A DNA stretch of 64,000 nucleotides, from assembly GCA_017481575.1 (NCBI GenBank), contig JAFUPA010000054.1, positions 25,914 to 89,913 on the forward strand, given 5' to 3'. Under the pieces are notes generated by a model. It ran no database searches. It saw nothing but the letters and a program-made list of their open reading frames with translations, and was not told where the DNA came from. The stretch is from Clostridia bacterium (lineage in GTDB: Bacteria; Bacillota; Clostridia; Oscillospirales; Acutalibacteraceae). The translations under genes were made by a program, and so were the position numbers. Positions 1,862 through 57,950 of the stretch are shown piece after piece (the first letter of the stretch is position 1; each line of letters starts with the position of its first letter).

Positions 1862-1990
1862 AACAATGCACCTCTCAATTCAATTTGTTTTTTCTATATT
1901 ATCATATTTTTATTTCCAAAGCAATCTAAAATATTTCTTGCCAAATTGGCATTATTTTGCTATTATATCAGTCAAAGGAAGGTGTTTCTT

Positions 1991-2980: not shown

Positions 2981-3013
2981 AGCTTCCCCACAAGGCGAAT
3001 AAGCCGCCATCTA

Positions 3014-3069
3014 CGATAAAAATAAATCCCCTTGATTTCGGTTACAGCAACCTGAAAACAGGGGGATTA
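3014..3069 (-). terminator. Probable terminator of the small XRE regulator
   Basis: On the minus strand the stop codon of the 73 aa regulator runs into AATCCCC, paired about 30 bases later with GGGGATT and followed by an A/T-rich run with five T. The loop is long and the stem short, so this is a moderate call. Confidence 0.45.
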
Positions 3070-3288
3070 TTTCTTTCTCGGATATGGTTTATCTTCCGGT
3101 GTTATGCCCAAAAGGTAATCAATACTTGTGTCATAAAAATAAGCTAGTTTAATCAGAATATCTGTCGGTATGTCTCTTGTGCCGAGCTCATACCGTGAAT
3201 AACAGACCTGTGAGCAGTTGAGATAGTCTGCAAGATCTTTTTGCAAAAGGTCACGGTCTTCCCGAAGGTTTCTTATTTGTTCGTACAT
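3067..3288 (-). CDS. Small XRE-family HTH regulator (73 aa)
   Basis: A Cro/CI-type helix-turn-helix fills the whole protein: a recognition region around QKDLADYLNCSQ followed by SRYELGTRDIP, and the typical IDYLLG ending. The ATG at 3288 follows GGTGA; the longer reading to 3381 would run through the promoter. It is divergent from the membrane protein at 3401. Two palindromes in the intergenic region, one inside each promoter, suggest that it represses both itself and its neighbour. That regulation is inferred from site placement. Confidence 0.85.
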   Translation of the reverse strand: MYEQIRNLREDRDLLQKDLADYLNCSQVCYSRYELGTRDIPTDILIKLAYFYDTSIDYLLGITPEDKPYPRKK

Positions 3289-3303
3289 AAAATCACCAGA
3301 TTT

Positions 3304-3357
3304 ATTATACGCAAACCAAATTGGTATATTGACATATAAACCATTTTGGTTTATGAT
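3304..3357. promoter_or_regulatory. Divergent promoters with one operator in each spacer
   Basis: Plus strand: TTGACA (3329-3334), 17 bp, TATGAT (3352-3357). Minus strand: TCAATA (3327-3332), 17 bp, TATAAT (3304-3309). A palindrome of 7 bp arms (TAAACCA / TGGTTTA, 3337-3353) fills the plus spacer, and a second, shorter one (ACCA-AAT-TGGT, 3315-3325) lies in the minus spacer. The centres are 25 bp apart. The arrangement fits binding by the XRE protein at 3067. Confidence 0.75.
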
Positions 3358-3400
3358 AATTTCAGGAATTTGAAATTCCAATAATTTATGAGGTGATTTT

Positions 3401-3904
3401 ATGCCGCAAAGAAAAGAATATGATGTATATGCAGGTAATCAGAAGGTCGGCGAGGTCTGGGGACATTATGATGTCTTTACGGAAGCCGAAAGAGCGGAAA
3501 AAAGAGCGAAAATGGTGGCTGATTTGATTATGGATGATCTCGCAAAAGACCGCATCCGTGATACAGAACAATATAAAGCCAAAGAAGCCAAAGCTGAACG
3601 GAACTTCAAAATCAGAAAAACTATCGGTATGATTTGCGTTATTGCATCCATAGCCTTGGCGGTAATAAGCGTTGTTTTTAACAATGAGATAAAATCCGAC
3701 TCATTTTTATTAAGGTTCGTTGTTCCTTCAATCGTTTTTGGCTTGGGTATAGGCTTGAAATATACTGATGTTGAAGTTAATGTAAAAAAGAGAAAGCCTG
3801 TTATAAGTTGGGGTGACGCGTTTTATATGTTTGGAGGTTGTGGAATAGGTTTCTTTATTGCTGATTTTATCATCAGTTTCTTTATTGTTAAATTTGTTTT
3901 TTAA
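3401..3904 (+). CDS. Membrane protein of unknown function (167 aa)
   Basis: The family is not recognised. Residues 1-70 are soluble and highly charged (many Lys, Glu and Arg, probably helical). Three hydrophobic segments follow, at about residues 75-93, 104-122 and 142-166, so the N-terminus is probably cytoplasmic. The start has GAGGTG 7 bp upstream. It forms a regulatory pair with the divergent XRE gene through the operator-promoter region between them. The pairing recalls stress-responsive or phage-derived two-gene units, but nothing in the sequence fixes a role. Confidence 0.7.
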   Translation: MPQRKEYDVYAGNQKVGEVWGHYDVFTEAERAEKRAKMVADLIMDDLAKDRIRDTEQYKAKEAKAERNFKIRKTIGMICVIASIALAVISVVFNNEIKSDSFLLRFVVPSIVFGLGIGLKYTDVEVNVKKRKPVISWGDAFYMFGGCGIGFFIADFIISFFIVKFVF

Positions 3905-3992
3905 AAATCTATAAAGTCAAACAACGCTATTTTGCATTCCAAAAATCAAGATAATGTGTTTGATAAATTAAAATTTTTCTAACAAAAACATA

Positions 3993-4025
3993 ATGCGGCA
4001 GAGACTTCGCTCTACCGCATTTTTT
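3993..4025. terminator. Bidirectional terminator
   Basis: An 11 bp stem with one mismatch (3993-4003 with 4010-4020), a six-base loop and a T-run on the plus side. It separates the membrane protein at 3401 from the convergent ABC exporter operon ending at 4024. Confidence 0.75.
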
Positions 4026-5823
4026 ACTGCTCTTCTTTATATTTCTCTGCCTGGAGATTGAACATATAGGCATACTTGCCGTTCATCGCCATCAGCTCTT
4101 CGTGAGTTCCGCTTTCGACGATTTCGCCGTTTTCAAGCATATAAATAACGTCTGCCATAACAGTTGTTGAAAGACGGTGCGAAATGAATATAACCGTCTT
4201 GTCCTGTGCGGCACGTGACATTGCCTCGTTGAGCGAATATTCCGAAACGGGGTCAAGGTTTGCGCTCGGCTCGTCAAGGATTGCAAACGGGCAGTCCTTG
4301 TAAAAGGCTCGGGCAACGGCTACCTTTTGTGCCTCACCGCCCGAAAGCGAAAGTCCGTTGTCGTCAAATTCCCTCAACAGAATTGTGTCTGCTCCGTTTT
4401 CAACCTCTTTGTTAAAGCTGCTTTCTTTCAAAGCCTGCAAAACCTTTTGCTTGTCGGGCTTTTCATTCATTGCAACGTTTTCACCGAGAGTTGCACCGAA
4501 GAGTGAAAAGTCCTGAAAAACAGCGGCATAGTTGCTGTGATATGAGCGTACATTCCAATCCTTGATGTTTTTGCCGTCAACGGTAATCTGACCCTCGGTA
4601 ACGTCATAAAGACGAAGTATAAGGTTTGTAAGCGTTGTCTTTCCCGCTCCGTTGTAGCCGACAAGTGCAATCTTCTGGTATGGCTTGATTTCAAGGTTGA
4701 TGTTCTTTAAGGTCGGCTTGTCGTTACCGGGGTAGGTGAACGAAACGTTTTCAAGCTTAATCGGTACGGGCTTGTCAAATTTTTTGTCCATACCGCCGTC
4801 CTTGATTTTTTCTTCCGCCGCCATAAACTTTTTGTATTTTTCAACATAAAGTCCGTTTTCTCTAACTCGGATTGCAAACCAGCTTGTCATTGCAAAAACG
4901 CTGTTGCTGACGGAGCTTACACCGTTAAAGGTTGCGGCAAAGCTGCCGAGGCTGATTTCTTTTGTAACAATCGCCTTGTACCCCATATACAGAGTAACAC
5001 CGAGGCAGATAAGCAGAGTCATCGGTAAACTTTCCTGGCTGAAATAAAGCACCCATTGCTTTCTGAGAAACGGTGAAATTGTAAAAATACGATCAAGAAG
5101 ATTTTTATTGTACCGTCTTTCAATCATTTCGCCTGCGGGGTTGAGTCGCAGTTCCTTTGCATAGTCCTGCAAATAGAACACACGGGAGAAGTAGAGATTT
5201 TTTCTGTCAAGCGGAGTCATTGCGTTTTTCTTGTCGATGTTGACCTTTGCAATCAGTCTGCCGACAGGCACCATAATTCCCACGCACAATGCAATAAAAA
5301 TGAAGCAAACAGGGTCGATTGTGACAATAACCGCAGTTATTGAAATTATGGAAACCATGTGTGTGAAGAAATCCTGCGTGCTTGACATTATGCTGTCCAC
5401 ACGGTCGCTCATCGTGTTCATTGCGAGCACGAAATCGTTATAGAATTCGGGATTGTCGTAGGACTGGAAGTCCATTTTTGCCGCTTTTTCATAAATCTGT
5501 GAATACAGCTTGTAGTGCAGTTTTTCGGCCTGTCTCGGGCGGTAAACCTCGTAAAATAAAGTGTTGCCGAGGTTACCGATGACAACTACTACTGCAAAAA
5601 TAAGGCAAGCAATAACAATTCTGTAAAGGTCGGTTCCCTGCGTAACAACGTCAATAATGTACTTGAGCAGTACAACGTTGGACAAAAGCCACGGCAGGTT
5701 AGAAAGCACATCAAAGAAAAGGAGCGAAATCAGAAGCATCGGCGCATTTTTGATAACGAACTTCAGCATAAAAAGGTAATTTTTGAAGCTGTGCGCACTT
5801 TCTGCTTTTTTATTATTCTTCAT
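4024..5823 (-). CDS. ABC exporter half-transporter, second subunit
   Basis: A 599 aa fused transmembrane and nucleotide-binding half-transporter. Six membrane helices lie within residues 20-310 and the ATPase spans about 350-599: Walker A GYNGAGKT (389-396), signature LSGGE (about 493-497), Walker B ending in catalytic E518, and an H-loop in ISHRLS. The ATG at 5823 is chosen because GAGGAAAG precedes it and it overlaps the upstream subunit by only 11 bp; longer readings run far into that gene. With the 607 aa neighbour it should form a heterodimeric type IV exporter for a drug, lipid or peptide. Both subunits keep the Walker B glutamate, so neither ATP site looks degenerate. Confidence 0.9.
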   Translation of the reverse strand: MKNNKKAESAHSFKNYLFMLKFVIKNAPMLLISLLFFDVLSNLPWLLSNVVLLKYIIDVVTQGTDLYRIVIACLIFAVVVVIGNLGNTLFYEVYRPRQAEKLHYKLYSQIYEKAAKMDFQSYDNPEFYNDFVLAMNTMSDRVDSIMSSTQDFFTHMVSIISITAVIVTIDPVCFIFIALCVGIMVPVGRLIAKVNIDKKNAMTPLDRKNLYFSRVFYLQDYAKELRLNPAGEMIERRYNKNLLDRIFTISPFLRKQWVLYFSQESLPMTLLICLGVTLYMGYKAIVTKEISLGSFAATFNGVSSVSNSVFAMTSWFAIRVRENGLYVEKYKKFMAAEEKIKDGGMDKKFDKPVPIKLENVSFTYPGNDKPTLKNINLEIKPYQKIALVGYNGAGKTTLTNLILRLYDVTEGQITVDGKNIKDWNVRSYHSNYAAVFQDFSLFGATLGENVAMNEKPDKQKVLQALKESSFNKEVENGADTILLREFDDNGLSLSGGEAQKVAVARAFYKDCPFAILDEPSANLDPVSEYSLNEAMSRAAQDKTVIFISHRLSTTVMADVIYMLENGEIVESGTHEELMAMNGKYAYMFNLQAEKYKEEQ

Positions 5824-46470: not shown

Positions 46471-47382
46471 TTACAGTTTATTTCTGTAATTATACTTATT
46501 AAGCACTTGTTTCTTTCGTTTTGTTGTTACCTCGGTGTATATCTCCGTTGTAGCAACACTGCTGTGTCCGAGAATTTCCTGAACGGAACGCAAATCTGCA
46601 CCGTTCGCAAGAAGATTGGTAGCAAATGTATGCCGCAAGTAGTGCGGTGTCGATTTTTTGTTAATTCCACAAGCTCTTTTTGCAGAATTATAGATGTATT
46701 CAATACCGTGAATACTCAGCTGTTCACCAAAACGGTTTACAAATATCTTGTCTGTATTGGTAGGTCTGCTTTTGCGAATTTTCAGCCACCGAGTAAGATT
46801 ATTCCACGTGTCGTTACAAGATATGTAAATGAGCCGCTGTTTTCTCCCCTTGCCGTGAATGAGAATTGTCCGTTCAGAAAAAATCACATCACTAAGTGCG
46901 ATGTTTGAAGCCTCGGCGATTCTTATGCCGGTACTGATTAAAACATCAATTAATGCAAGATTGCGGTAATTCTTCCAAGAATCAAAAACAGTTGTTTCCA
47001 TTTCGGCACACTTAGTTAAATATGCGAGTAGTTTTGAGGTTTCTTTGATTGCCAGCGTTTTTGGAAGTCTGCGTTCTTTCTTATATCGGAAATGATGATT
47101 CTGATAGTAGTTTATATCAGTATATCCTTGCTCGTAAAGAAAACTAAAAAACATTTTAAGTGTAATTAACTTTCGGCAAATTGTGTTATCTTTGAGTTCT
47201 CTCTCTTTGGATAACACTTGCACATATTTCAGGATAACTGTTTCATCAAGCACCTTGTCTTGCAGAAACACCTGAAAATCGTTTAAATCCGAACGGTAAG
47301 CTGTTATCGTTTTATCGGATAAGTTTTTTGTAGATTGGATGACTTGTATAAATTCATCACTTGCTGTTTTTATACTTTTCAT
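46471..47382 (-). CDS. Tyrosine recombinase, probable DNA invertase of the flanking segments
   Basis: A 303 aa phage-integrase-family protein. The N-terminal SAM-like core-binding domain (residues ~5-90) is followed by the catalytic domain with R154, K178, H247, R250, H273 and nucleophile Y282, all present. The size matches XerC/D and invertase-type recombinases rather than large integrases with arm-binding domains. It ends the run 74 bp left of repeat R1, and its promoter region overlaps R1. Four sites with inverted arms around a 7 bp spacer lie at the ends of two adjacent segments, so it is the likely catalyst of their inversion. Confidence 0.85.
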   Translation of the reverse strand: MKSIKTASDEFIQVIQSTKNLSDKTITAYRSDLNDFQVFLQDKVLDETVILKYVQVLSKERELKDNTICRKLITLKMFFSFLYEQGYTDINYYQNHHFRYKKERRLPKTLAIKETSKLLAYLTKCAEMETTVFDSWKNYRNLALIDVLISTGIRIAEASNIALSDVIFSERTILIHGKGRKQRLIYISCNDTWNNLTRWLKIRKSRPTNTDKIFVNRFGEQLSIHGIEYIYNSAKRACGINKKSTPHYLRHTFATNLLANGADLRSVQEILGHSSVATTEIYTEVTTKRKKQVLNKYNYRNKL

Positions 47383-47455
47383 TTGATCACTCCTCGAAAT
47401 TTTAAAAATGTGTTCGCAAAATCATTTTAACAGAATTTCGAGGAGAGTTGTCAAT

Positions 47456-47497
47456 AACTAACAATAACTTCTTATTATTGTATGTTCTTAAATAAAG
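47456..47497. repeat. Inversion site R1 (left end of segment A)
   Basis: Bases 47461-47497 are a perfect 37 bp inverted copy of 49470-49506. The core has arms AACTAACAATAA (47456-47467) and TTATTGTATGTT (47475-47486) around spacer CTTCTTA; the left arm differs from the ideal by two bases. TTGTCA at 47448-47453 and TATTAT at 47473-47478 (19 bp apart) could form a promoter reading into the segment. On the other strand TTGACA (47449-47454) may serve the recombinase. Confidence 0.85.
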
Positions 47498-47536
47498 TTA
47501 ATTATCATTATTCGTTACGAAAAAAAGGTATGGACT

Positions 47537-48223
47537 ATGATTAATCTTCCTAAAGATTTTGTTTTAATAATATCTGGAGTTTCATGTGTAGGCAAAACAA
47601 CCGCAGCATACAATCTTTTGAAGGAATATCCTGAATTCAAGAGAGTAACCGAACTAGATATTATAAGAATGATATTACGTTCAACAATTAAGGATGCTGC
47701 AAACAACATCTCTTGTTCTGAACGAAAAAAAATACAAGAGAAATTTGAGCATCTTTTTTCTTCATCAACAAGTGAAGACTTTTTTGTGCTAAAGGAACAA
47801 TCAAGAACGCTTGTAAAGTGTATAAAAGAAATAGTAAAAAGACAGCAAGAACGAAAAATACCAACAATAATTGAAGGGGTAAGTATTGTCCCAAGCGTGT
47901 TTTTCCAAGACGGTAAGCCTCTTAAAGGCTTTGAAAAAAATGTATTATTTATCAACCTTTTCCTGTCAGATGAGAATGAACATTATTCACGAAGAGAAAA
48001 AAGATGTTCCGAAAGAGAATATACAGACACGAAAGAATCCATACATAGAAGAGTTGAATGTATAAGGAACAATAAAAACAATATATTGCACAAAGAAACG
48101 GTTGAGTTGAGTTTATTTGTAAATAATGTTGTGAGCATTGACATTTCACATCTTGATGAAAAAATGGTAGTATGTAGAATTGCTAATATAATTCAGAATT
48201 ATTTAAATACTTGTAAAAACTAA
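47537..48223 (+). CDS. P-loop kinase, 2-phosphoglycerate-kinase-like (left unit of segment A)
   Basis: A 228 aa protein with Walker A SGVSCVGKTT (13-22), an ELD acidic switch near residue 39 and IIEGVSIVPS (about 119-128), which recalls the EGVHLVPG motif of 2-phosphoglycerate kinases; basic helices follow as a lid. It could also be a polynucleotide-kinase or zeta-like enzyme. The ATG follows AAAGGT. It is 40 bp inside R1 and overlaps the convergent TIR gene by 4 bp at their stops. In the present orientation it is the unit placed next to the outside promoter. Confidence 0.65.
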   Translation: MINLPKDFVLIISGVSCVGKTTAAYNLLKEYPEFKRVTELDIIRMILRSTIKDAANNISCSERKKIQEKFEHLFSSSTSEDFFVLKEQSRTLVKCIKEIVKRQQERKIPTIIEGVSIVPSVFFQDGKPLKGFEKNVLFINLFLSDENEHYSRREKRCSEREYTDTKESIHRRVECIRNNKNNILHKETVELSLFVNNVVSIDISHLDEKMVVCRIANIIQNYLNTCKN

Positions 48224-49428
48224 AAATTTTCACCGTAAAAATGAACTAAAAGTTCTTCGGTCAAAGGAACAGATCTCGCGTTATCACTCCAAATTTCTTC
48301 AAATTTTGTTATTGAGTTAAATCCTTTATTTTTTCTTTCGTCTTCGTTCTCTAGTGCACTGAATATCTCAAAATTAGAATTTGTATATGGCAAAGGGTAA
48401 CCTTCCGTATCACAAATAGTTTGCCGATATATTACAGCGTTGTCGCATCTAATAATAGATTCTTTCCTAGGCTCAATATATAGTCTAAATAACTTTTCTA
48501 CAGGTAACCCGAATTTGTTTTTTAATTTATATGCCTGTGTCAAAGATATCTGCATTTCATAGTTGAAAATTTTTTCTCTGTCTTTGCTGCTAGCCTTAAA
48601 GCTCGCATCACTCCCTGGGAGAGGAAATAGACAACGGAAATCTACTCCGTTATACAATCCCTCGTCTGCTAAATATTTGAAAAAATCATCATATTCACGA
48701 GATAATAATTTTTTGTTTTTTCTGCCATAAATCCACAAATATTTCCCTTCAAATTCAGTAATAGAATCGGTTAATATTTTCATCAAAGCATGTGTTGTAA
48801 AACCTTTATGAAAAATAATGTGTTCTTTAGAAATATCGGGGCTAACAATAGAAAAGCTATTATTATCATTCTCGAGCAACTTATTTACCAATTCTTTGCA
48901 TTCAATAGGAATAATTTGTTCTTTTTTTAATATTTGTTTTATTTCATACTCATACTTTTCCCAGTTGAGATTAAATTGCTTTAATTTGATATTAAGACTT
49001 TTGGCTGTTTGCTCAAGAAACTTTTTGAATTCTGTTTTTCCAGTTCCAAATTCATGGTTGTAATTTTGAATTTGAATAGGGACATATCTGTTTAACGGTT
49101 TATCTATCCAAGAAGACCATTCAGGTATTTCTTCGAATAAAATAGGAATTACAATTCCATCTTTTGTCTTTTGATGATTTGCTCCATATACGACTCCTGC
49201 TTCATACAAAAGCCACGGGTTTTTAAAGTTTTCTGAGGTTACACACACTAAACATTTAGAACTCTCTAACAAATTTTCATGAATTTCATGATCAACGCTA
49301 GTGCCTTTATACATTTCCGGCGAAAAGAAAAATTCAACAGAATTTCCAAGAGTTTTTTCAAGAAAATTCTTGGTTACTTCTGCTAATTGTCGGCTTTTGT
49401 TTTTTGACCAACTAATAAAGATCTTCAT
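48220..49428 (-). CDS. TIR-domain protein with unknown C-terminal domain (right unit of segment A)
   Basis: A 402 aa protein. Residues 1-~150 are a bacterial TIR domain: KIFISWSKN at the start, FFFSPEMYKGT, and PWLLYEAGVVYG with the catalytic glutamate E76, so NAD-cleaving activity is plausible. The remaining ~250 residues, with KYLWIYGRKNKK, GVDFRCLFPLPGSD and LRLYIEPR-like strands, are not recognised and may be the sensor. The ATG at 49428 is used; the ATG at 49440 is also possible. The start lies 41 bp inside R2. A terminator outside R2 faces it, so it is probably silent as drawn. Confidence 0.78.
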   Translation of the reverse strand: MKIFISWSKNKSRQLAEVTKNFLEKTLGNSVEFFFSPEMYKGTSVDHEIHENLLESSKCLVCVTSENFKNPWLLYEAGVVYGANHQKTKDGIVIPILFEEIPEWSSWIDKPLNRYVPIQIQNYNHEFGTGKTEFKKFLEQTAKSLNIKLKQFNLNWEKYEYEIKQILKKEQIIPIECKELVNKLLENDNNSFSIVSPDISKEHIIFHKGFTTHALMKILTDSITEFEGKYLWIYGRKNKKLLSREYDDFFKYLADEGLYNGVDFRCLFPLPGSDASFKASSKDREKIFNYEMQISLTQAYKLKNKFGLPVEKLFRLYIEPRKESIIRCDNAVIYRQTICDTEGYPLPYTNSNFEIFSALENEDERKNKGFNSITKFEEIWSDNARSVPLTEELLVHFYGENF

Positions 49429-49469
49429 GTCATACCACATTCTCTTTCTAATGATAATTAGATATTATC

Positions 49470-49511
49470 CTTTATTTAAGAACATACAATAATAAGAAGT
49501 TATTGTATGTT
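49470..49511. repeat. Inversion site R2 (right end of segment A)
   Basis: A perfect core: arms AACATACAATAA (49481-49492) and TTATTGTATGTT (49500-49511) around spacer TAAGAAG, the reverse complement of the R1 spacer. Bases 49470-49506 are the inverted copy of 47461-47497. R1 and R2 face each other, so recombination would invert about 2.0 kb. Confidence 0.88.
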
Positions 49512-49536
49512 AACGATTTTGAGGAAAGTTAGTTTT

Positions 49537-49571
49537 AATAAAAAATAAGCTCCCTTCTTAAAAAAGGGAGC
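49537..49571 (-). terminator. Inward-facing terminator outside R2
   Basis: Minus strand: stem GCTCCCTT / AAGGGAGC (49549-49556 with 49564-49571) and a T-rich tail over 49537-49548. It would stop leftward transcripts before they enter segment A, keeping the right-hand unit off. Confidence 0.7.
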
Positions 49572-49612
49572 CTGACAGAAAATATTTAGAACAAAAAAGG
49601 GAATACAAAAAT

Positions 49613-50317
49613 ATGGAATTGTTGTTGTATAGAAGTTATTTGAAATATTTAAAAGATAATAGAGTGCCTATGTCTAAAGCATTTAAGAAAATGCCAAAAA
49701 CAATGGTTGCATTGTTGATTATCTTATTGTTATCTGCAATTAGTGTTATTCTCGTTATTTGTATTGAAAAGATTCGTATATACTTTTATGCAGCTATCGC
49801 TATTGAAGTAATTATTGCTTTTATAGTTTTTTTATACGGTCAACATTATGAAATAAAAAATAGTGACCAAGATATGAAAGAATATGAAACCTATTGTAAC
49901 AATTTGTATGTGTGGTTAAAAAACACCTCTGTTTCTGTTGCAAGAAAAGATATTATTGAATTAAAAAGCCGTATGGTTTATCGATTAGAGATATATGAAC
50001 AAAAACAACAGAGAACGTATGATGTTGCAATAAAATTTATTCAAGTGTTGATAATACCTATTGTTTTAACGGTATTAACGGTTGTATTGAATAAACAAAT
50101 TGATATTAGTATGATTCTAGCACATGGTTTTATTACAATAATGATTTTATCTTTTTTAGCGGTTACATTGTTTGGTTTTATCTCTTTCGTTAATTTGATA
50201 AGAAAAAATGAGTTTGAAAAAATGAAAAGTTTTGTAAATGATTTGCAGGGAATATTAGATACACAATTTGATGAAGGAATATTTGCAAAGATCGCTACAG
50301 AAGATGAATGTACATAA
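49613..50317 (+). CDS. Four-helix membrane protein of unknown function
   Basis: A 234 aa protein with two hydrophobic helices at about residues 30-50 and 56-74, a ~70-residue charged helical stretch, then two more helices at about 140-160 and 168-195, and a soluble tail. It is not a known family to me. It is the first gene of a three-gene operon with the Kiwa-like pair (16 bp gap), so it may be an added component or an alternative effector. The start follows AAAAGGG. Confidence 0.65.
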   Translation: MELLLYRSYLKYLKDNRVPMSKAFKKMPKTMVALLIILLLSAISVILVICIEKIRIYFYAAIAIEVIIAFIVFLYGQHYEIKNSDQDMKEYETYCNNLYVWLKNTSVSVARKDIIELKSRMVYRLEIYEQKQQRTYDVAIKFIQVLIIPIVLTVLTVVLNKQIDISMILAHGFITIMILSFLAVTLFGFISFVNLIRKNEFEKMKSFVNDLQGILDTQFDEGIFAKIATEDECT

Positions 50318-50333
50318 TTAAGGAGGCAAGCAT

Positions 50334-50924
50334 ATGAAAATGAATAACGCTAAAACGCTATTAAAAGTTCGTTTTTATATTATTTCTTTGTGGTTGCTAT
50401 TCTTTTTGGTTGCGATATGCACTGTGGAAATTCCATCTTTTGTGGAATCACAAACAATTAAACAAAAAATCATTCTTGTTTTTGGTGAAAATATTCTCCC
50501 GATAATATCAATTATTTTATGTATTGTATGTTTTATTTTAATGTTATTTACAAGATATGAGTGGGAGGGTGCAAGCAATCCTGGGTATAAAATAAAAGAA
50601 ATCAAAAATGAGAATTATGAGTATTTAACATTTTTGACGACCTGCATTATTCCTCTTATTTGTATTGATTTTGATGATTTTAGGAATGTTATAGTTTTTA
50701 TCGTATTGTTGTTTATAATTGGTATAATTTTTGTAAAAATGGATTTATATTACGGTAATCCAACCTTGGCAATTATGGGTTATAAATTATACCGAGTTGA
50801 AATCGAAAACGTTAATGCACCTAATGGCATTATACTTATCACAAAAGATAACTTGCATAAAGGCAAGTCAATAAAATGGATGAAAATAGATGAATATGTT
50901 TGGGTTGCAAAGGAGATAGCTTAA
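50334..50924 (+). CDS. kwaA: Kiwa defence protein KwaA (membrane component)
   Basis: A 196 aa protein with four hydrophobic helices (about residues 14-33, 46-68, 96-112 and 118-135) and a soluble C-terminal part with a YGNPTLAIMGYKLYRVE strand. The size, topology and coupling to a DUF4868 gene match KwaA, the membrane subunit of Kiwa, an anti-phage complex at the inner membrane. The start follows AGGAGG. Its stop overlaps the next start by 1 base (TAATG). Recognition depends mostly on the neighbour. Confidence 0.75.
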   Translation: MKMNNAKTLLKVRFYIISLWLLFFLVAICTVEIPSFVESQTIKQKIILVFGENILPIISIILCIVCFILMLFTRYEWEGASNPGYKIKEIKNENYEYLTFLTTCIIPLICIDFDDFRNVIVFIVLLFIIGIIFVKMDLYYGNPTLAIMGYKLYRVEIENVNAPNGIILITKDNLHKGKSIKWMKIDEYVWVAKEIA

Positions 50925-51886
50925 TGGATGTTGAAAATTTTAGAGCAAGAATTGCAGATGTATTATCAGAATCAGTACTGGCTCAGGTTTATCTTTTGAT
51001 AAAACAAGATAATGAATATGTTGCAAAGCTTGCTGATTTGGAAAATGGAAAAACAGAGAGTGAAGTTACCAAGCTTTTCAAAAACTTTGTTGATGATACT
51101 GTTATGAAAAATGAAGATTTGCAGATGTGTGAATTGTCGGTTGCTGATGACCGAAGCAATGCGATATATCATTACGATTATGATGAGTGTCCGGAAGAAT
51201 TAAAAACTTTTAAAGATTTTGATATTAATTTTCGTGTTAATAATCCGGACAAGTTTGATTTTCATAATGATCATATTAATAATCTTTATGGGTACATAAT
51301 ATATCTTGGAACAATGGAAAATGGCATTGTTTTGTTCAAGAAACATTACCCTATATCTCTCATAAAAAGAGATAGTTTTTTGCTTGGATTGATAAAAGCA
51401 AATGAACGTTTTGAACTTATTCAGGGCGATGACATTTTAAGGCTTAATGGTGATGCTCAATTAATTCTTGTTGATGGAGAAATATATGTTTTTGACACAA
51501 AAATTTTGGAGCAAAGCATCAAATTTAATATGTTGATTAATAAAGCAGCAGATGAAACCATTGAAGCAATAGACAATCTTGGCTTGTTAGAGGATATTCA
51601 GGTTTTGAGAGATTCTGCTGAGGAAATAAGCTTTGCAAGAAAATTGTCAAAGGTCAAGAAAACCTCACCGATATTCAGTTTGAATATTCCGAAAGAAACA
51701 ATAGTTCAATTTACAAAGACAACTAAAGAGCTTGAAGGAAGATTTAAATACAGTGATGATGGTCAAACAATTCGTCTTGACACAAAAAAGTCAAAGGCTG
51801 CATTTCTAAAATTAATGAACGACTCTTTTTTGCGTTCAGAACTTACAAATCAGTATTATGAAACTTCAGCAAAAGATAAAATATAA
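50924..51886 (+). CDS. kwaB: Kiwa defence protein KwaB (DUF4868)
   Basis: A 320 aa protein with the DUF4868 pattern: an acidic helical N-terminus, GYIIYLGTMENGIVLFKKHYP, a RLNGDAQLILVDGEIYVFD strand pair and a helical C-terminal part. In Kiwa, KwaB works with KwaA against phage replication and transcription. The ATG at 50924 follows AAGGAG and is coupled to kwaA. Only 7 bases separate its stop from inversion site R3, with no terminator, so its transcript should run on into whichever unit of segment B is adjacent. Confidence 0.85.
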   Translation: MDVENFRARIADVLSESVLAQVYLLIKQDNEYVAKLADLENGKTESEVTKLFKNFVDDTVMKNEDLQMCELSVADDRSNAIYHYDYDECPEELKTFKDFDINFRVNNPDKFDFHNDHINNLYGYIIYLGTMENGIVLFKKHYPISLIKRDSFLLGLIKANERFELIQGDDILRLNGDAQLILVDGEIYVFDTKILEQSIKFNMLINKAADETIEAIDNLGLLEDIQVLRDSAEEISFARKLSKVKKTSPIFSLNIPKETIVQFTKTTKELEGRFKYSDDGQTIRLDTKKSKAAFLKLMNDSFLRSELTNQYYETSAKDKI

Positions 51887-51893
51887 AAATAAT

Positions 51894-51954
51894 CTTACAA
51901 TAATATCAAATTATTGTAAGTAAACTTGCAGGATAACTATTTGTTATCTATTAA
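51894..51954. repeat. Inversion site R3 (left end of segment B)
   Basis: A 61 bp sequence, perfectly repeated in inverted orientation at 57492-57552. The core has arms CTTACAATAA (51894-51903) and TTATTGTAAG (51911-51920) around spacer TATCAAA. Arms share the octamer TACAATAA with R2, but the spacer differs from segment A. The remaining 34 bp form the common 5-prime leader of both alternative units. Confidence 0.92.
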
Positions 51955-51969
51955 AAGGTGTTAAGTCAA

Positions 51970-54900
51970 ATGAGTTATAAACAATATAAAATTCTTAAAG
52001 AAATTGATTTCAGGAAATTGCAGTGGTTAGAATTTGAACAGATGTCCTTGGATTACATAAAGAAGATTTATAAAGAAAAAAACACAACTATAGAATTGAC
52101 ACCACCTTCTAAAGATGGGGGTAGGGATATTATTGTTTCTCATATTAGCAAAGTGGGAATTTATAAAGCATGGATTGAATGTAAAAACCACAAAGAAAAA
52201 CTAGGATTGTCGGACATATCAAAAAACATACTTTTAGTAATGTTTGAAGGAATAAATAAAATTATATTTATTTCAGCAAGTGAGATAACTGACAAAGCCA
52301 AACAATATCTTTCAGAATTTTCAACATCACATTCTTTTGATGTGCAATTTCTTGACGGAAACTCATTAAAGTTTGAATTAATGAATCATCCGGAAATATT
52401 AGAAAAATATTTTTCAATCAACAATTATAGAAAAATTAATACAGAGGATTTATTAATTGATTACTTTGTCTCTGAATTCAAAGATGACAGAATAGAAGGC
52501 GTTGAAGAAATTCAAGGCCAATTTTGTTTGTATAGAAAATTGGACTTTTATATATATTTAACCTTAATGAATAAATTTAATAAAAGTATATCAATTATTT
52601 CTATATCACCTAAATATGAAATTAGTGATTTTAAGGTAAACAAAATGAATTCAGTAGATGAAATTGCCATGAAGTCTGATAAAGTGGTAGGATTCTATTG
52701 TGAGGTATGGAATAAAAGTGATAATAAAAAATTACCTGATTTTGAAATCAAATACAGAATAGGCAATAAAGAAAAAACTAAAATAATCGAAACAGGAATT
52801 GTTAATACTCAAAAGGTTAAACACATCCCATTTATCGGTCCCAAAAGGACTGTTTTTGTAAATGATACCGTCAATGAAATAATCCAAAAAATTGAAGGCG
52901 GTTACTACCAACTTATCTATTTGTATGGAGAATCGGGTGTTGGTAAAAGTCGTATGATGGAGGAAATAGAGCGAAAATTTGAAAAAAGGATGTTTATAAT
53001 TAAACACATTAATTGCTTGAACTCAGGAACAAATAAAGTAATAAAGACACTCCTTACCACACTTATGCAAATTCCTTTTGAGGTATCTGAAATTCAAATA
53101 AGCAATGAAAGCCTCGCAAAACACATAAACTTTATAAGCTTAAGTGAACATGAAGTCGATATGATCAAAGATTTTTTGATAAATGCAAAAATGGATTCTC
53201 ATTCATGGCAGTTTATAAAGAAATTAATAATTGAGCTAATGAACGAAAAAGGCACAAAACATAAGTTTTTGTTCAGCTTTGATAACATTCAAAAAATGGA
53301 TACTTTATTGTATGAACTTATTTGTGAGGTTAATGATTCGTTTTTAGACAGATATTCTAATACATGTTTAGTAGTGGCAGAAAACACAGATTATGAAAGT
53401 GAAGATTCTTCTAAATTGCGCAGCGATGTTATTGCATTAAGTTCCTCAAAAAGTGAAATTTGCAATATGTTCAAAATAGAAGAAATGACAGAAGGTGAAA
53501 AAAAGTTAATAATAGATAATTGTTTTCCAAACATCAAAAAAAATGAATTTATTTATCATAGTCTTTTGTCTAAATCCGGAACAAAAGCATACGACATTAT
53601 TATGATGTGTGAGCACATAAGAGAAAATAAGTTAATTAAGCCCATTGGTAAGGAAAATTGGATAGTTAACGATTCTGGAAAATTCAATCAGTTTATTTCG
53701 TCCATCTCTGATAAACATATGGATTACACAGAATTTAGACTTAAACATATTGAAAATACTATTTCTGACGACATTTGGTATGAATACAAAAAAATCTTCA
53801 TGTGTTTGGTTGCTTTCGATGGAATAATGCCTAATAAAATAACTGAAGTTTTAAATGTTAAAGATAACATATTGTCAAAACTGTTTGGTTCAAAGCTTAT
53901 AAAGTTTGATTATTATTCTGATAATATTACTTTCTATCATGATAATCTGTTTAGATATTATAAAAAGCATGTATGCAGTTATACAATGATGAAAATTTCT
54001 TCTTTGATATACCCTTGGTTAAATGAAGATAAGAACATTACTAACCCCAATTGGTATATTGTTCGTTTTTATTTACTCGTACATTCATTTAAAATCAAAG
54101 AAGCTCTTGAGTATGGTTTGTTCTTAATTCAGAATTTAAAGCAACGTTATGAAATGAAAAAAGCTCTTGAGATTGTAAATCTATTGTTAGACGATAAATA
54201 CCATTCAGACGATAATACAATCAAATTCGATCTGTTCAATTTAGGTGCTGAATGTTTATGGGAAACGGTAGACACAAATTTAGCTTTGAATTATTACAAA
54301 AATGCCCACAATATAATTCCTTGTATTATTGACAACGAATCAAGAATTCAAGTATGTAAATTTTATCACAGATACATAAATGTATTATTTCATCTTGGAA
54401 TGAATAAAGAAGCATATCAACTTCTTAAAGAGTATGAAAGTGTGAAAAGCAAAAGTGATTATGAGGAATTCATTTTAAACAATCGTTTTTCAGTTTATTA
54501 TTATAGAAAAGGCGACTTTGAAAAGGCTGAAAAGAGAATTCAGAAATCTATTGAATATGCAAAAAAATTAAAGAGTAGTTTTTGGGAAAGTACTGCCTAT
54601 TCAGAATCCGCATATAATTTTTTGCGTAACAAGAAAGATGTTGAAAAAGCAAAGCATTATTTTCAAAAAGCTATAGATTTATATGATCAAAGCGATGATG
54701 AAACATATTACAGGATACTTGAAATTTGCAATCAAAAGGCTACTGTTCATTATTTCAGTAGTGATTATGAAGAAGCATTAGATGAAATTAATATCTCTAT
54801 AGAAAAATGTAAAAGTATCAATAATGTATATATGGAAATAAAAGCTCTCAATATTAAAGGAATCATTTTAGCAAACTCTAACATGGATATAAACAATTCT

Positions 54901-55284
54901 ATTGAAGTATGGAAAGAGGCATTGCATAAAAGCAGTACTATAGGTACAGATATGTATTCATGCAAACTATGTTTTAACATAGCAGCAGCTTATATAACTA
55001 AAGATGATACACAAATAGCCAAGAGCTATTTGCATAATGCATTATCTTTATTGGAAAAATCAAATTATTCAAAAAACAGAGAGGAAGAGTTAGTTACAAT
55101 TTATTTTGCCTATGTTTTACTTTGTGAGAATGACACACAATCGTATTTGCCATTTAAAAACTCATCAAAAGTAAAAAAGCACATAACTGCAATGAAAAAA
55201 ACAATAGATCCAAAGAAATATATTGAGAGCTTTTGTGAAGGTATATTTACCTACAAAGGTGTTGATTTCTTGTATAGCACATAA
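51970..55284 (+). CDS. Mrr-like nuclease/STAND ATPase/TPR protein (Avs-like; left unit of segment B)
   Basis: A 1104 aa protein. Residues ~15-145 are an Mrr-type PD-(D/E)XK nuclease: GGRD (D53) and ECK (E70, K72). Residues ~290-600 are a STAND/AAA-type ATPase with Walker A YGESGVGKS (K326) and Walker B FLFSFDN (D438). Residues ~690-1100 are TPR-like helical repeats (DFEKAEKRIQKSIEYAKK, DVEKAKHYFQKAIDLYD), the likely sensor. This order is that of antiviral STAND proteins. The ATG at 51970 follows AAAAGG. It begins 15 bp inside R3 and ends 1 base before the convergent glycosyltransferase. It is probably cotranscribed with Kiwa now. Confidence 0.82.
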   Translation: MSYKQYKILKEIDFRKLQWLEFEQMSLDYIKKIYKEKNTTIELTPPSKDGGRDIIVSHISKVGIYKAWIECKNHKEKLGLSDISKNILLVMFEGINKIIFISASEITDKAKQYLSEFSTSHSFDVQFLDGNSLKFELMNHPEILEKYFSINNYRKINTEDLLIDYFVSEFKDDRIEGVEEIQGQFCLYRKLDFYIYLTLMNKFNKSISIISISPKYEISDFKVNKMNSVDEIAMKSDKVVGFYCEVWNKSDNKKLPDFEIKYRIGNKEKTKIIETGIVNTQKVKHIPFIGPKRTVFVNDTVNEIIQKIEGGYYQLIYLYGESGVGKSRMMEEIERKFEKRMFIIKHINCLNSGTNKVIKTLLTTLMQIPFEVSEIQISNESLAKHINFISLSEHEVDMIKDFLINAKMDSHSWQFIKKLIIELMNEKGTKHKFLFSFDNIQKMDTLLYELICEVNDSFLDRYSNTCLVVAENTDYESEDSSKLRSDVIALSSSKSEICNMFKIEEMTEGEKKLIIDNCFPNIKKNEFIYHSLLSKSGTKAYDIIMMCEHIRENKLIKPIGKENWIVNDSGKFNQFISSISDKHMDYTEFRLKHIENTISDDIWYEYKKIFMCLVAFDGIMPNKITEVLNVKDNILSKLFGSKLIKFDYYSDNITFYHDNLFRYYKKHVCSYTMMKISSLIYPWLNEDKNITNPNWYIVRFYLLVHSFKIKEALEYGLFLIQNLKQRYEMKKALEIVNLLLDDKYHSDDNTIKFDLFNLGAECLWETVDTNLALNYYKNAHNIIPCIIDNESRIQVCKFYHRYINVLFHLGMNKEAYQLLKEYESVKSKSDYEEFILNNRFSVYYYRKGDFEKAEKRIQKSIEYAKKLKSSFWESTAYSESAYNFLRNKKDVEKAKHYFQKAIDLYDQSDDETYYRILEICNQKATVHYFSSDYEEALDEINISIEKCKSINNVYMEIKALNIKGIILANSNMDINNSIEVWKEALHKSSTIGTDMYSCKLCFNIAAAYITKDDTQIAKSYLHNALSLLEKSNYSKNREEELVTIYFAYVLLCENDTQSYLPFKNSSKVKKHITAMKKTIDPKKYIESFCEGIFTYKGVDFLYST

Positions 55285-55285
55285 T

Positions 55286-56401
55286 TTAAAAAGAGTTATT
55301 TTCCAACAAGTTTTTTGCTAAAACAAAATTTCCGTTCATATCACAAACAATATCATTTTTATTACATCTGTTTTGTGACCAGAAATAATTGTTGTTAGCA
55401 TAGGTGAATCTTTTGAAAAAAAGAATAAGAGGATAAGTCTGCATACAAAGTTCAACACCTAACACATCATCAAAAATCACAGGTTTGTCTGATAGATTTT
55501 TAAAATTGAATATATCAATCACCTTTATTCCTAATTCTTTTGATATTGTAGAAATATAGTCATCCAAATATAATGTGTTGGAAAAATTAATAAAAATATA
55601 CTCTTTTTCAATAGGAGTAACTTGGGAAAAATTTTTACACTCTTGTGCAAAAAACTTTAGCCCATTATTAACTTCTTTGTTGCCCCATTCTTTAAAAAAT
55701 AGTGCTTTCGTGTCCATTACAGATAGTGACCTCATCTCTCCGCCAATATTCCCTCTATGGTAAACTATTGCTTTTGTACAAACATAGTTATTGTATCCCA
55801 ATTCAAATATTTTACCACTTAGATCCATATCACCATAGGCATTGAAATACACCGGATTGAAACCATTAATCTTTTTAAAGGTTTCTCTTTTTAACATAAA
55901 ACATCCAGAGGGAGTGAATGTATAGCTCCTGTCACCGTCTATATTTAGATTGTCAACAAATTGTTCCCTGTAAGGTTTAAGACAATCTACTCCATGTAAT
56001 TCAATGCCTGTAATGGTGATTCTATTGGTAGACATATCAACAACGGTTGCGGAAACAGAACCTACATTATTATTCTGGGTGAATGATTTTTGCATTTCAT
56101 CAAGCCAACCACTAGTGGGGAATATATCACAGTCCATAAATATCAAATAGTCACTATTTGCCGCATTTGCGCCAATATTACATGCCATAGGATGTCCACC
56201 GTTTTTGTCAACATTGATTAATTTGATAGATATATCAGAATTATACTTGTTAATGATGTTATCAATCGAAATTTGTGGGTTGTCATTTACAACTATAATT
56301 TCAACATCTGATTTGTTGCTTATAGTTGATATTGTGTGATAAAGGCAGGAATCAAGGATGTTTTTTCCATTATAAAATGTTATGATAATTGTATATTTCA
56401 T
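55286..56401 (-). CDS. Family 2 glycosyltransferase (right unit of segment B)
   Basis: A 371 aa GT-A fold enzyme: TIIITFYNGKNILDSCL start, an EIIVVNDN strand, NGGHPMACNIGANAA and the metal-binding FMDCDIFP (D-x-D), followed by CFMLKRETFKKINGF. No membrane helix is seen. It probably adds a sugar to a surface polysaccharide. Its start overlaps the stop of the mutase gene by 1 base, so the pair is coupled; galactofuranose transfer is inferred from this. Confidence 0.85.
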   Translation of the reverse strand: MKYTIIITFYNGKNILDSCLYHTISTISNKSDVEIIVVNDNPQISIDNIINKYNSDISIKLINVDKNGGHPMACNIGANAANSDYLIFMDCDIFPTSGWLDEMQKSFTQNNNVGSVSATVVDMSTNRITITGIELHGVDCLKPYREQFVDNLNIDGDRSYTFTPSGCFMLKRETFKKINGFNPVYFNAYGDMDLSGKIFELGYNNYVCTKAIVYHRGNIGGEMRSLSVMDTKALFFKEWGNKEVNNGLKFFAQECKNFSQVTPIEKEYIFINFSNTLYLDDYISTISKELGIKVIDIFNFKNLSDKPVIFDDVLGVELCMQTYPLILFFKRFTYANNNYFWSQNRCNKNDIVCDMNGNFVLAKNLLENNSF

Positions 56402-57477
56402 TATTGTACTCCTTCACATATTTTTATTGCTTCATAAACACATTGTCCCATTGACAAATTTTTGTATGTGGCTAATCTACCTATTAACTTAATGTTTTCT
56501 GGAAGTTCAGAAACTAATTTATCATATCTTTCTTTTATTATTTGATTTTTGAAATCTGGTACGGCATATAATGGTTCTCCTTCTTTTAGAGAGTACTCAG
56601 TTCCAATAATATGAACTTTAAAATCAGATTCCATAAAATAGTTATAGTCCGTTCGTCTTATATAATCATAATCATTGGGATAATTAACTACTGCAGAAGG
56701 TAAGGTTGTTCCATATGTTTTTTCTAATTCAAAACGAACTGAATGGTATTCAAGCTCACCTTCAGATTTATCAAAAAAATCATCAAGTCTGCCTGTAAAC
56801 ACGAGCCAATTGTAGGAAACATGATTTCGTATCTCTTTATAATCAGTATTTAAAAGAACTTTTATGTTGTTATGTGCTAACATTTGGTTCAGCATATAGA
56901 AATACCCTTTTTCTGGTATTCCTTGATACGTATCACTAAAATATCTACCATCAATGCTTTCTCTTATAGGGATTATTGCTGCTGTTTGTGGAATCAAATT
57001 AAATGGTTCTGTTAACCATTGCTTTATGGAATAATTTTTATAAAAAAGTGAATAAAGGTCGTCACCTATTTTGTTTTTTAGAATTTCCTCAAAATTTTCG
57101 CCTTCAGTAGAGAAATTTCTCAATTTATCTAAAACATTGCCTACAGTATGTTTATTAAAAAGTTTATTCAATGTATTTAGATTTATAGGGAATTCGCAAT
57201 AGTTTCCAAGCACATAACTTGTAACCCTGTGCTGATAGTTACTGAATTTTGCAAACCTTGAAACAAAATCAAATACAAATTTATTACTTGTTCTAAAGAT
57301 ATGAGGTCCATACAAATGAATATTTATACCCTCTTCAGAAAATTCATCTCTACAGGCTCCGCCTATAACAGATTTTTTTTCTATAAGTAAAACCTTTTTT
57401 CCTTTTTCAGCTAATATACGTGCTGCAGTTATTCCACTTATACCAGCTCCTACTACAAGAATATCCGTATTAACCAT
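56401..57477 (-). CDS. glf: UDP-galactopyranose mutase (right unit of segment B)
   Basis: A 358 aa flavoenzyme: FAD motif VVGAGISGITAA, an acidic VLLIEKK, GGACRDEF, YGPHIFRTS and the QWL and RRTDYNYF regions of Glf. It converts UDP-galactopyranose to UDP-galactofuranose for surface glycans. The ATG at 57477 follows AAGGGATG; a GTG at 57486 is possible. The start lies 15 bp inside R4. With the adjacent terminator (57571-57616) it is likely silent in this orientation and would replace the Avs-like gene after inversion. Confidence 0.92.
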   Translation of the reverse strand: MVNTDILVVGAGISGITAARILAEKGKKVLLIEKKSVIGGACRDEFSEEGINIHLYGPHIFRTSNKFVFDFVSRFAKFSNYQHRVTSYVLGNYCEFPINLNTLNKLFNKHTVGNVLDKLRNFSTEGENFEEILKNKIGDDLYSLFYKNYSIKQWLTEPFNLIPQTAAIIPIRESIDGRYFSDTYQGIPEKGYFYMLNQMLAHNNIKVLLNTDYKEIRNHVSYNWLVFTGRLDDFFDKSEGELEYHSVRFELEKTYGTTLPSAVVNYPNDYDYIRRTDYNYFMESDFKVHIIGTEYSLKEGEPLYAVPDFKNQIIKERYDKLVSELPENIKLIGRLATYKNLSMGQCVYEAIKICEGVQ

Positions 57478-57491
57478 TTTATTCACATCCC

Positions 57492-57552
57492 TTAATAGAT
57501 AACAAATAGTTATCCTGCAAGTTTACTTACAATAATTTGATATTATTGTAAG
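57492..57552. repeat. Inversion site R4 (right end of segment B)
   Basis: A perfect inverted copy of the 61 bp R3: arms CTTACAATAA (57526-57535) and TTATTGTAAG (57543-57552) around spacer TTTGATA. Recombination between R3 and R4 would invert about 5.6 kb. Confidence 0.92.
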
Positions 57553-57570: not shown

Positions 57571-57616
57571 TGAAAAAACATAACAAAGCCAGCTCGTGTT
57601 AAATGCAAGTTGGCTT
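57571..57616 (-). terminator. Inward-facing terminator outside R4
   Basis: Minus strand stem AAGCCAACT / AGCTGGCTT with one mismatch (57608-57616 with 57586-57594), then a tail with six T (57573-57578). It would stop leftward transcripts before segment B. Confidence 0.6.
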
Positions 57617-57707: not shown

Positions 57708-57950
57708 TTGACAAATAAACAAATGTTCTGTATAATAGTAAATTGGTAAATATGTATTTGCCCTATAACTCAATACAAACTGAAACACATATTATCTGAC
57801 TGAAGAAAGTATAGTCCGATACTCGGTCAGCAACATACGGACAATCAGAGCTTAAATTTTAAGCCGTTACATAGTTTCAGTACAAACTGTGCGAGAGGAT
57901 GAAATGTCTTCCCGCTATTTGTGCTATCTATGTGACGGCTTTTTTGTTTT
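57708..57950 (+). ncRNA. Structured RNA candidate with own promoter and terminator
   Basis: TTGACA (57708-57713), 17 bp, TATAAT (57731-57736) give a start near 57743. About 200 bases follow with several stems: CTGAC..GTAT/GATAC..GTCAG (about 57798-57826), GCGAGAGGA/TCTTCCCGC (about 57891-57915), and a closing stem GCCGT-ACATAG / CTATGTGACGGC that ends in TTTTTTG (57940-57946). There is no reading frame of note. Not matched to a known family. It precedes the replication region, so copy control or a riboregulator is possible. Confidence 0.55.

Follow-up and report, generated by a model that had tools for sequence, protein, structure and literature searches.

Why should a tyrosine recombinase adjoin two repeat-bounded segments of DNA with a Kiwa defense operon between them? 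The question is raised by a 64,000-nucleotide stretch of a gut bacterium (Clostridia bacterium, contig JAFUPA010000054.1, positions 25,914 to 89,913), which was analyzed as a whole and is termed the window here. We consider it quite probable that we are dealing with a portable two-way cassette system driven by the recombinase, two copies of which surround the Kiwa operon. Segment 1 (47461-49506) and segment 2 (51897-57549) flank Kiwa; the inverted repeat arms of segment 1 (47455-47506 and 49461-49512) share a perfect core of 37 bp, and those of segment 2 (51894-51964 and 57482-57552) one of 61 bp. These perfect repeats beside a recombinase had been pointed out in a preliminary description of this DNA, and its further claims of two convergent units per segment, an inward-directed terminator outside each right repeat and Kiwa between the segments are borne out as well (Table 1). 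The outermost genes face inward both in segment 1 (47537-48223, plus strand, against 48220-49440, minus strand) and in segment 2, where a plus-strand gene starting at a GTG at 51958 or an ATG at 51970 and ending at 55284 meets two minus-strand genes (55286-56401 and 56401-57486, the latter starting at a GTG at 57486 or an ATG at 57477); the segment 2 start codons thus lie at the inner edge of the repeat arms or just inside the arms. The P-loop of the long segment 2 protein was recognized from an AAA_16 match below the cut-off (4.6e-06) and the Walker A motif GESGVGKS. The island shares with Kiwa the adjacent kwaA and kwaB genes and differs in that its operon runs toward a putatively invertible segment and has an extra membrane protein gene in front. 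A counterpart of the latter (45% identical) lies ahead of shortened Kiwa frames at the related locus L029.

Table 1. Features of the island in window coordinates and, in the last four rows, segments of the wider family outside the window
Feature	Position	Strand	Evidence
Xer-type tyrosine recombinase, 303 aa (amino acids)	46471..47382	-	PF00589 6.5e-37; PF02899 1.6e-13
12-bp inverted repeat CTCCTCGAAATT / AATTTCGAGGAG bracketing the recombinase promoter region	47390..47445		seen in the sequence
Crossover site, segment 1 left end, ACAATAA-CTTCTTA-TTATTGT	47461..47481		dyad scan
Segment 1 left arm, P-loop kinase resembling 2-phosphoglycerate kinase	47537..48223	+	NF003259 5.4e-11 and AAA_33 3.2e-4, both below cut-off
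Segment 1 right arm, TIR protein, 406 aa	48220..49440	-	PF13676 2.9e-08; PADLOC TIR-TM 4e-18 over residues 5-118; C-terminal part without family
Crossover site, segment 1 right end, CTTCTTA spacer inverted	49486..49506		dyad scan
Terminator directed into segment 1, outside right end	49547..49573	-	terminator scans, strict rule included
Membrane protein gene before KwaA	49613..50317	+	no match above curated cut-off
KwaA	50334..50924	+	PADLOC 1.4e-61
KwaB	50924..51886	+	PADLOC 4.3e-87; PF16162 2.9e-33
Crossover site, segment 2 left end, ACAATAA-TATCAAA-TTATTGT, 10 bp past kwaB stop	51897..51917		dyad scan
Segment 2 left arm, Mrr_cat nuclease - P-loop (STAND-like) - TPR, about 1100 aa	51958..55284	+	PF04471 1.7e-13; TPR_12 2.4e-09
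Segment 2 right arm, second gene, family 2 glycosyltransferase	55286..56401	-	PF00535 3.8e-21
Segment 2 right arm, first gene, UDP-galactopyranose mutase (Glf)	56401..57486	-	PF03275 1.8e-48
Crossover site, segment 2 right end, TATCAAA spacer inverted	57529..57549		dyad scan
Terminator-like hairpin directed into segment 2, outside right end	57586..57616	-	missed by stricter terminator rule
Paenibacillus plasmid: P-loop protein vs ATP-grasp			30-bp repeats
Aliarcobacter plasmids (three): AAA protein vs ATP-grasp + tRNA-editing-like; GNAT vs methyltransferase; ATP-grasp vs no-family + AAA-like			17-19 bp repeats
Streptococcus salivarius plasmids: P-loop-TPR vs SHMT-type PLP (pyridoxal phosphate) enzyme; polyprenyl synthetase vs no-family; no-family vs methyltransferase			26-39 bp repeats
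Human fecal scaffold recorded as Bacteriophage sp. (L098): ThsA-like SIR2-STALD vs TIR, beside recombinase	MT835475.1, 5552-7717		19-bp repeats

The crossover sites tie the two segments to each other and at the same time set them apart. One dyad, ACAATAA-N7-TTATTGT, occurs at all four segment ends with 0 mismatches, but segment 1 has the spacer CTTCTTA and segment 2 the spacer TATCAAA, in each case at its two ends and in opposite orientations; the left copy of segment 1 is imperfect outside the 7-bp arms. In a scan of the 64-kb window for ACAATAA-N(6-8)-TTATTGT, matches with 0 mismatches were confined to the four ends of the segments, where the spacer is always 7 bp long. The whole source assembly (2.1 Mb, 72.9% complete) contains five perfect matches, four of them the segment ends, and with at most 1 mismatch there are 7 genome sites, versus 1 for a backwards control pattern. 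The fifth perfect dyad (C43:12922) was rejected as a mark of a third segment: it has no same-spacer partner among the perfect matches and lies inside a coding region, which we read as a mobilization gene. Chance repeats or an assembly artifact were likewise set aside on account of the four perfect matched dyads, their near-absence elsewhere in the genome and the dyads upstream of the recombinases of relatives. With symmetric arms, only the spacer can give a site its direction, and both segments have the inverted sites with the same asymmetric spacer that mark a tyrosine-recombinase inversion switch; there are two sites per spacer, whereas a shufflon has at least three of a single crossover type, which give many arrangements. 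As the spacers differ, segments 1 and 2 should each recombine only with themselves, and we infer from these sequences that they would do so independently of each other. The leader common to both ends of segment 2 includes a small hairpin, GATAAC-N5-GTTATC (51932-51948 and 57498-57514), and less perfect hairpins resembling it occur at loci L025 and L033.

The same organization is found in related islands. Segments with both ends were available in 12 cases, namely, the two of the window, two at L029 and those of L025, L026, L028, L030, L033, L038, L040 and G880. In all 12, which belong to the window clade, the spacers are identical and inverted at both ends, and in 10 the outermost genes face inward at both ends (an 83-aa open reading frame in L030 being left aside). 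The spacers differ between segments in all three two-segment islands (the window, L029 and L033). The order recombinase, segment, defense operon, segment recurs in L029 and L033 with other cargo: in L029, shortened kwaA and kwaB frames, a degraded Kiwa, lie between two segments with genes different from those of the window, and in L033, AbiEi/AbiEii lies between segment 1 and a second site that is 29 bp from the contig end. At L028, a TIR gene matching SpbK (PADLOC 2.9e-71) follows the segment, and the stretch examined there contains no second site. A KwaB relative (63%) broken by a stop is also found at L092 (G016:C1) among defense-looking genes, with no recombinase match or perfect sites.

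The recombinase retains R154, K178, H247, R250, H273 and Y282, which we take to be its catalytic residues, and these are invariant in all seven aligned relatives. Genome searches at E-value limits of 1e-60 (close relatives), 1e-80 (order and class) and 1e-55 (phylum) recovered it in 6 of 198 close relatives and, within the order, in 5 of 394 sampled genomes, the window genome included each time. In the class (1/391) and phylum (1/398) samples, the sole match was the window's own genome, so the close family is sparse. A contig scan yielded 25 recombinase loci, many of them in ruminant and other gut metagenome assemblies, to which two loci found in the order sample, a duplicate and the window itself were added to make up 29 rows. 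A dyad with 0 to 2 mismatches lies upstream in each of the 22 rows that align to the first 11 recombinase residues, at a distance of 73 to 103 bp in 21 rows and 187 bp in one. No upstream dyad was found in the other seven rows (six distinct loci), whose alignments begin at residue 27 or beyond or whose sequence is truncated where the contig stops; among these is L042, a full-length frame with an unrelated N-terminal part. In a midpoint-rooted maximum-likelihood tree of 34 rows, 22 element recombinases fall, with L113 and L114, in one clade of 24 (support 100/98) that spans Bacillota, Campylobacterota and one fecal scaffold and is separate from three XerD rows. Repeats of at least 16 bp within 250 bp of the recombinase bound 10 of 10 outlying element loci versus 1 of 12 other matches, a comparison in which the 10 were already known to have repeats, five of them represent one Streptococcus plasmid locus and several of the 12 others are short. 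These 12 (L099, L104, L105 and L112-L120) were rejected as members, 11 of them being without bounding repeats, in several cases on short scaffolds. On the short scaffold of L113, the clade recombinase lies beside a UDP-galactopyranose mutase-like gene (1920-4174, by eye) with no inverted repeat pair. A virus origin was not adopted, as viral_contigs yielded no relative of the recombinase or the TIR protein in a seed search and no exact long dyad. The 12-bp repeat upstream of the recombinase is also present, with small changes, in relatives of its sub-clade, and it could pair with the recombinase ribosome-binding site in read-through RNA.

Evidence that such segments invert comes from relatives of the island. 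The plasmid record CP020439.2 of Streptococcus equinus FDAARGOS_251 has 236,564 bp, against 164 to 190 kb in four S. salivarius relatives, and its head (1-50000) and tail (187000-236564) are copies of each other. Two blocks, one of 26.3 kb (84 gap openings) and one of 20.2 kb (127 gap openings), align without a single mismatch, and the 2,069 bp that separate them, bounded by 39-bp repeats, match in reverse orientation (1 mismatch, 1 gap). We take the record to be a circular plasmid of a single isolate whose two ends were left unmerged, so that both orientations would have been present in that isolate; head and tail might, strictly speaking, still be two real copies. At G876:C47, a 123-bp stretch that runs from the site and reaches 18 bp into the recombinase gene is repeated on the other side of the segment, where the contig stops, and the contig of the right flank starts at the site. 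At G880:C4, the segment forms a contig of its own (4,389 bp) and shares exactly its first 141 bp with the start of the recombinase contig, a split like that at an assembly-graph fork, 141 being a common assembler word length. More generally, contig ends lie at most 120 bp from the recombinase-side site at 9 of 21 loci, versus 0.07 expected with random ends, and L025 and L038 have homologous arm pairs (62% and 38% identity) in opposite orientations. These cases of both orientations or of assembly forks in homologous islands support the reading of the window segments as invertible. Of the earlier proposal that the cell inverts each segment and so has four states, the part on invertibility by one recombinase is supported, on the basis of shared arms, private spacers and the behavior of relatives; actual inversion in the window strain, with the window recombinase as its cause, would follow by analogy, and the four states would be a further prediction.

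On the basis of these observations, we propose that the ACAATAA/TTATTGT arms of the four ends are the binding sites of the Xer-type recombinase, which would join ends with matching 7-bp spacers, such that segments 1 and 2 would flip without cross-reaction. Each segment would comprise two modules reading inward from opposite ends, of which one end is driven and the other shielded: the left flank would drive transcription, from the Kiwa operon into segment 2 and from the recombinase-side flank into segment 1, and the inward terminator would shield the right flank. A flip would then swap the expressed module, the kinase or the TIR protein in segment 1 and the Mrr-STAND-TPR protein or the Glf-glycosyltransferase pair in segment 2, so that expression would switch and one module at a time would be expressed exclusively. 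The end of kwaB 10 bp before segment 2 makes transcriptional read-through likely, i.e., the Kiwa operon probably reads into that segment. In a sister sub-clade, 6 of the 13 left flanks (L032, L034, L037, L038, L040 and L054) have a sigma-70-like promoter, TTGAWT-17-TATRAT, that stops 16 to 17 bp short of the site, and a similar promoter lies 6 bp before the second L033 site. Of the 14 right flanks, 6 have an inward terminator, among them both of those in the window, versus 0 of 26 left flanks (shuffles, 0.1 right and 0.2 left), and G873 and G876 have a hairpin like that at the right of segment 2 at the same position.

Several observations weigh against this reading. The window's assembly holds one orientation only, with no further copy of either site pair. 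An outward-reading gene lies at the left end of L028 and of the second segment of L029; L024, L034 and L041 have the recombinase and a single site, with no segment found; and L113 and L114 belong to the recombinase clade and are without a repeat pair, so the clade is not perfectly predictive of segments. With respect to transcription, 8 of the 14 right flanks had no terminator in the same test, the left flank of segment 1 has no convincing sigma-70 promoter (the best, TTGTCA-19-TATTAT, overlaps the site), no promoter stood out before Kiwa and the Streptococcus elements have -10-like boxes on both flanks (by eye). Promoter scores reach 10 in 9 of 26 left flanks versus 3.7 in simple shuffles, so the left-flank promoter rule is not general, and one promoter rule for all members was rejected. 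A terminator-like hairpin occurs within about 50 bp past the single site in L024 and L041.

What the arms encode was examined across a wider family found through protein searches of plasmid and phage records (Table 1). Adding the Paenibacillus segment, the three of Aliarcobacter, that of the fecal scaffold and three Streptococcus cassettes to the 12 clade segments gives 20 distinct segments, in which the gene pairs are mostly convergent. In 12 of the 20, an enzyme stands opposite a P-loop, TIR or pentapeptide protein, several P-loop assignments consisting of a Walker A motif plus Pfam scores below cut-off; the enzymes include UDP-galactopyranose mutase, glycosyltransferases, D-Ala-D-Ala ligase-type ATP-grasp, PLP enzymes, PhnM, radical SAM and a kinase. 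The remaining eight are L026, L028 and segment 1 of L029 (a pair without family), L040 (no family versus ATP-grasp), the fecal scaffold with ThsA versus TIR, that of Aliarcobacter faecis (GNAT and methyltransferase) and two Streptococcus cassettes with one arm without family. The 349-aa arm of L026, L028 and L029 had looked by eye like an ATP-grasp, an assignment not adopted after comparison with the L040 ATP-grasp (hhalign probability 5.9) and for want of a convincing PDB match; its 561-aa partner has TPR-like stretches only. The 756-aa arm of L040 was likewise not classed as a nucleoside triphosphatase, with no Walker A motif by pattern and weak Pfam matches only.

Strong PADLOC arm matches were restricted to the TIR protein of the window and the ThsA and TIR proteins of the fecal scaffold. 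The matches of some P-loop arms fall between 6.5e-05 and 0.005, and the majority of the scanned arms have no match, so for many arms the word defense is our interpretation, as is any benefit against phages. Some arm pairs are kept together across species and phyla, as in the pair common to S. salivarius and A. faecis (phmmer 2.2e-32 and 3.6e-52), and this conservation suggests either partnership or block transfer. Viewed against these data, the alternative defense or surface programs invoked in the preliminary description prove too narrow, in that Kiwa itself lies outside the invertible segments and defense-type genes occupy at most one side of most cassettes, an enzyme usually taking up the other. 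Together with the travel of pairs between phyla, this means that alternative defense programs are not the sole reading. One can tentatively conceive of a mobile family of two-headed invertible cassettes, spread over two phyla or more, that set a sensor or effector of immune type opposite a partner enzyme, one recombinase allowing just one of the two to be transcribed at a time and the cells being competent briefly after a flip or forming two complementary castes, although we rather doubt this fuller version.

Among the alternatives, cassette exchange deserves attention first. The recombinase might chiefly capture or swap two-gene cassettes at a fixed site, inversion being a by-product, as could be suspected from the single-site loci with an intact recombinase (L024, L041 and L034), the different cassettes at the same locus of S. 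salivarius plasmids and the pair common to S. salivarius and A. faecis. However, the inverted sites of completed segments do not permit excision by one crossover, the leaders common to both inner ends and the one-sided terminators are unneeded for exchange, and both orientations appear to be present in the single isolate of CP020439.2. We therefore regard exchange as a possible, if unlikely, main function. The arms might instead be partners of one system that are kept from co-expression, a flip briefly leaving both products in the cell. Thoeris requires both ThsA and a TIR protein, and in the fecal scaffold, a ThsA protein (PADLOC 2.7e-97) faces a TIR protein, a Thoeris-like pair split across a possibly invertible segment. 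Some pairs are indeed conserved as pairs, and related ATP-grasps face P-loop proteins without detectable similarity in Paenibacillus and Aliarcobacter cryaerophilus. Block inheritance would conserve pairs equally well, though, and the scaffold TIR protein matches ThsB at just 3.1e-07, which leaves this partnership rather unlikely. A relic, in which the repeats mark past inversions and the window island is now fixed, would account for the single assembled orientation, and degraded Kiwa in L029 and some degraded recombinases in relatives provide precedents; yet the recombinase, sites and arms of the window are open and full-looking and the 37- and 61-bp repeats have retained their identity, making it improbable. 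Chance repeats beside an ordinary housekeeping XerC/XerD may be dismissed as next to impossible, since despite a resemblance to XerD/XerA (best 8.9e-31) the recombinase has private inverted sites, with four perfect dyads and matched spacers, and belongs to a clade apart from the three XerD rows whose outlying loci have bounding repeats.

The reading of the island as a two-way cassette system has several parallels. In phase-variable type I restriction, hsdS inversion changes defense function by swapping target-recognition parts, whereas the window would swap whole genes, and no HsdS family was found in the ten window proteins scanned. RecV of Clostridioides difficile reversibly inverts a switch, and several sequences invert in that genome (PMC7446863, PMC9286219); from the parts of these accounts considered here, the likeness lies in reversible recombinase inversion and several inverting sequences per genome, and the difference in that RecV switches sit upstream of genes or operons, whereas the window would invert whole convergent modules with their own spacers beside the recombinase and a defense operon. 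Inversion of the P segment by PinQ in Escherichia coli alters phage susceptibility, PinQ being, as described there, a serine recombinase in a cryptic prophage, in contrast to the tyrosine recombinase of the window, and the same 2025 paper states in the part consulted that recombinases often lie beside antiphage genes with their defense function unknown (PMC12529663). Invertible promoters, intragenic invertons and shufflons of gut bacteria give phase variation by site-specific inversion (PMC10939037, PMC11892184), as proposed for the window cassettes. In the passages of these two papers considered here, two-ended cassettes beside defense operons are not named; the word "defense" occurs 0 times in PMC11892184, and in PMC10939037 "defense system" and "phage defense" occur 0 times and "restriction modification" once. 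A search by title and start of abstract found no paper on such cassettes, its coverage excluding the programmed-inversion survey of Milman et al. 2023, which may list some loci. Inversion switching, including several inverting sequences per genome, is thus known; new relative to the literature searched, that main survey aside, are two-ended cassettes with private spacers behind defense operons, common to phyla.

The island may itself be mobile. A consensus promoter, TTGACA-17-TATAAT (57708-57736), to its right reads toward mobilization-like and ParB-like genes, and this flank, together with a similar one after the G876 segment, suggests that the island may ride on a conjugative element.

In three islands (the window, L029 and L033), a cassette or cassette site follows a defense operon, Kiwa or AbiE. 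The combination of recombinase, dyad and convergent gene pair may serve as a marker for new defense or surface-chemistry genes, and the complete S. salivarius plasmids make the mechanism testable in culture. For the role of recombinases in defense, one recombinase clade now offers a candidate answer, namely, that it flips two-module cassettes, some of them with TIR, ThsA or P-loop genes.

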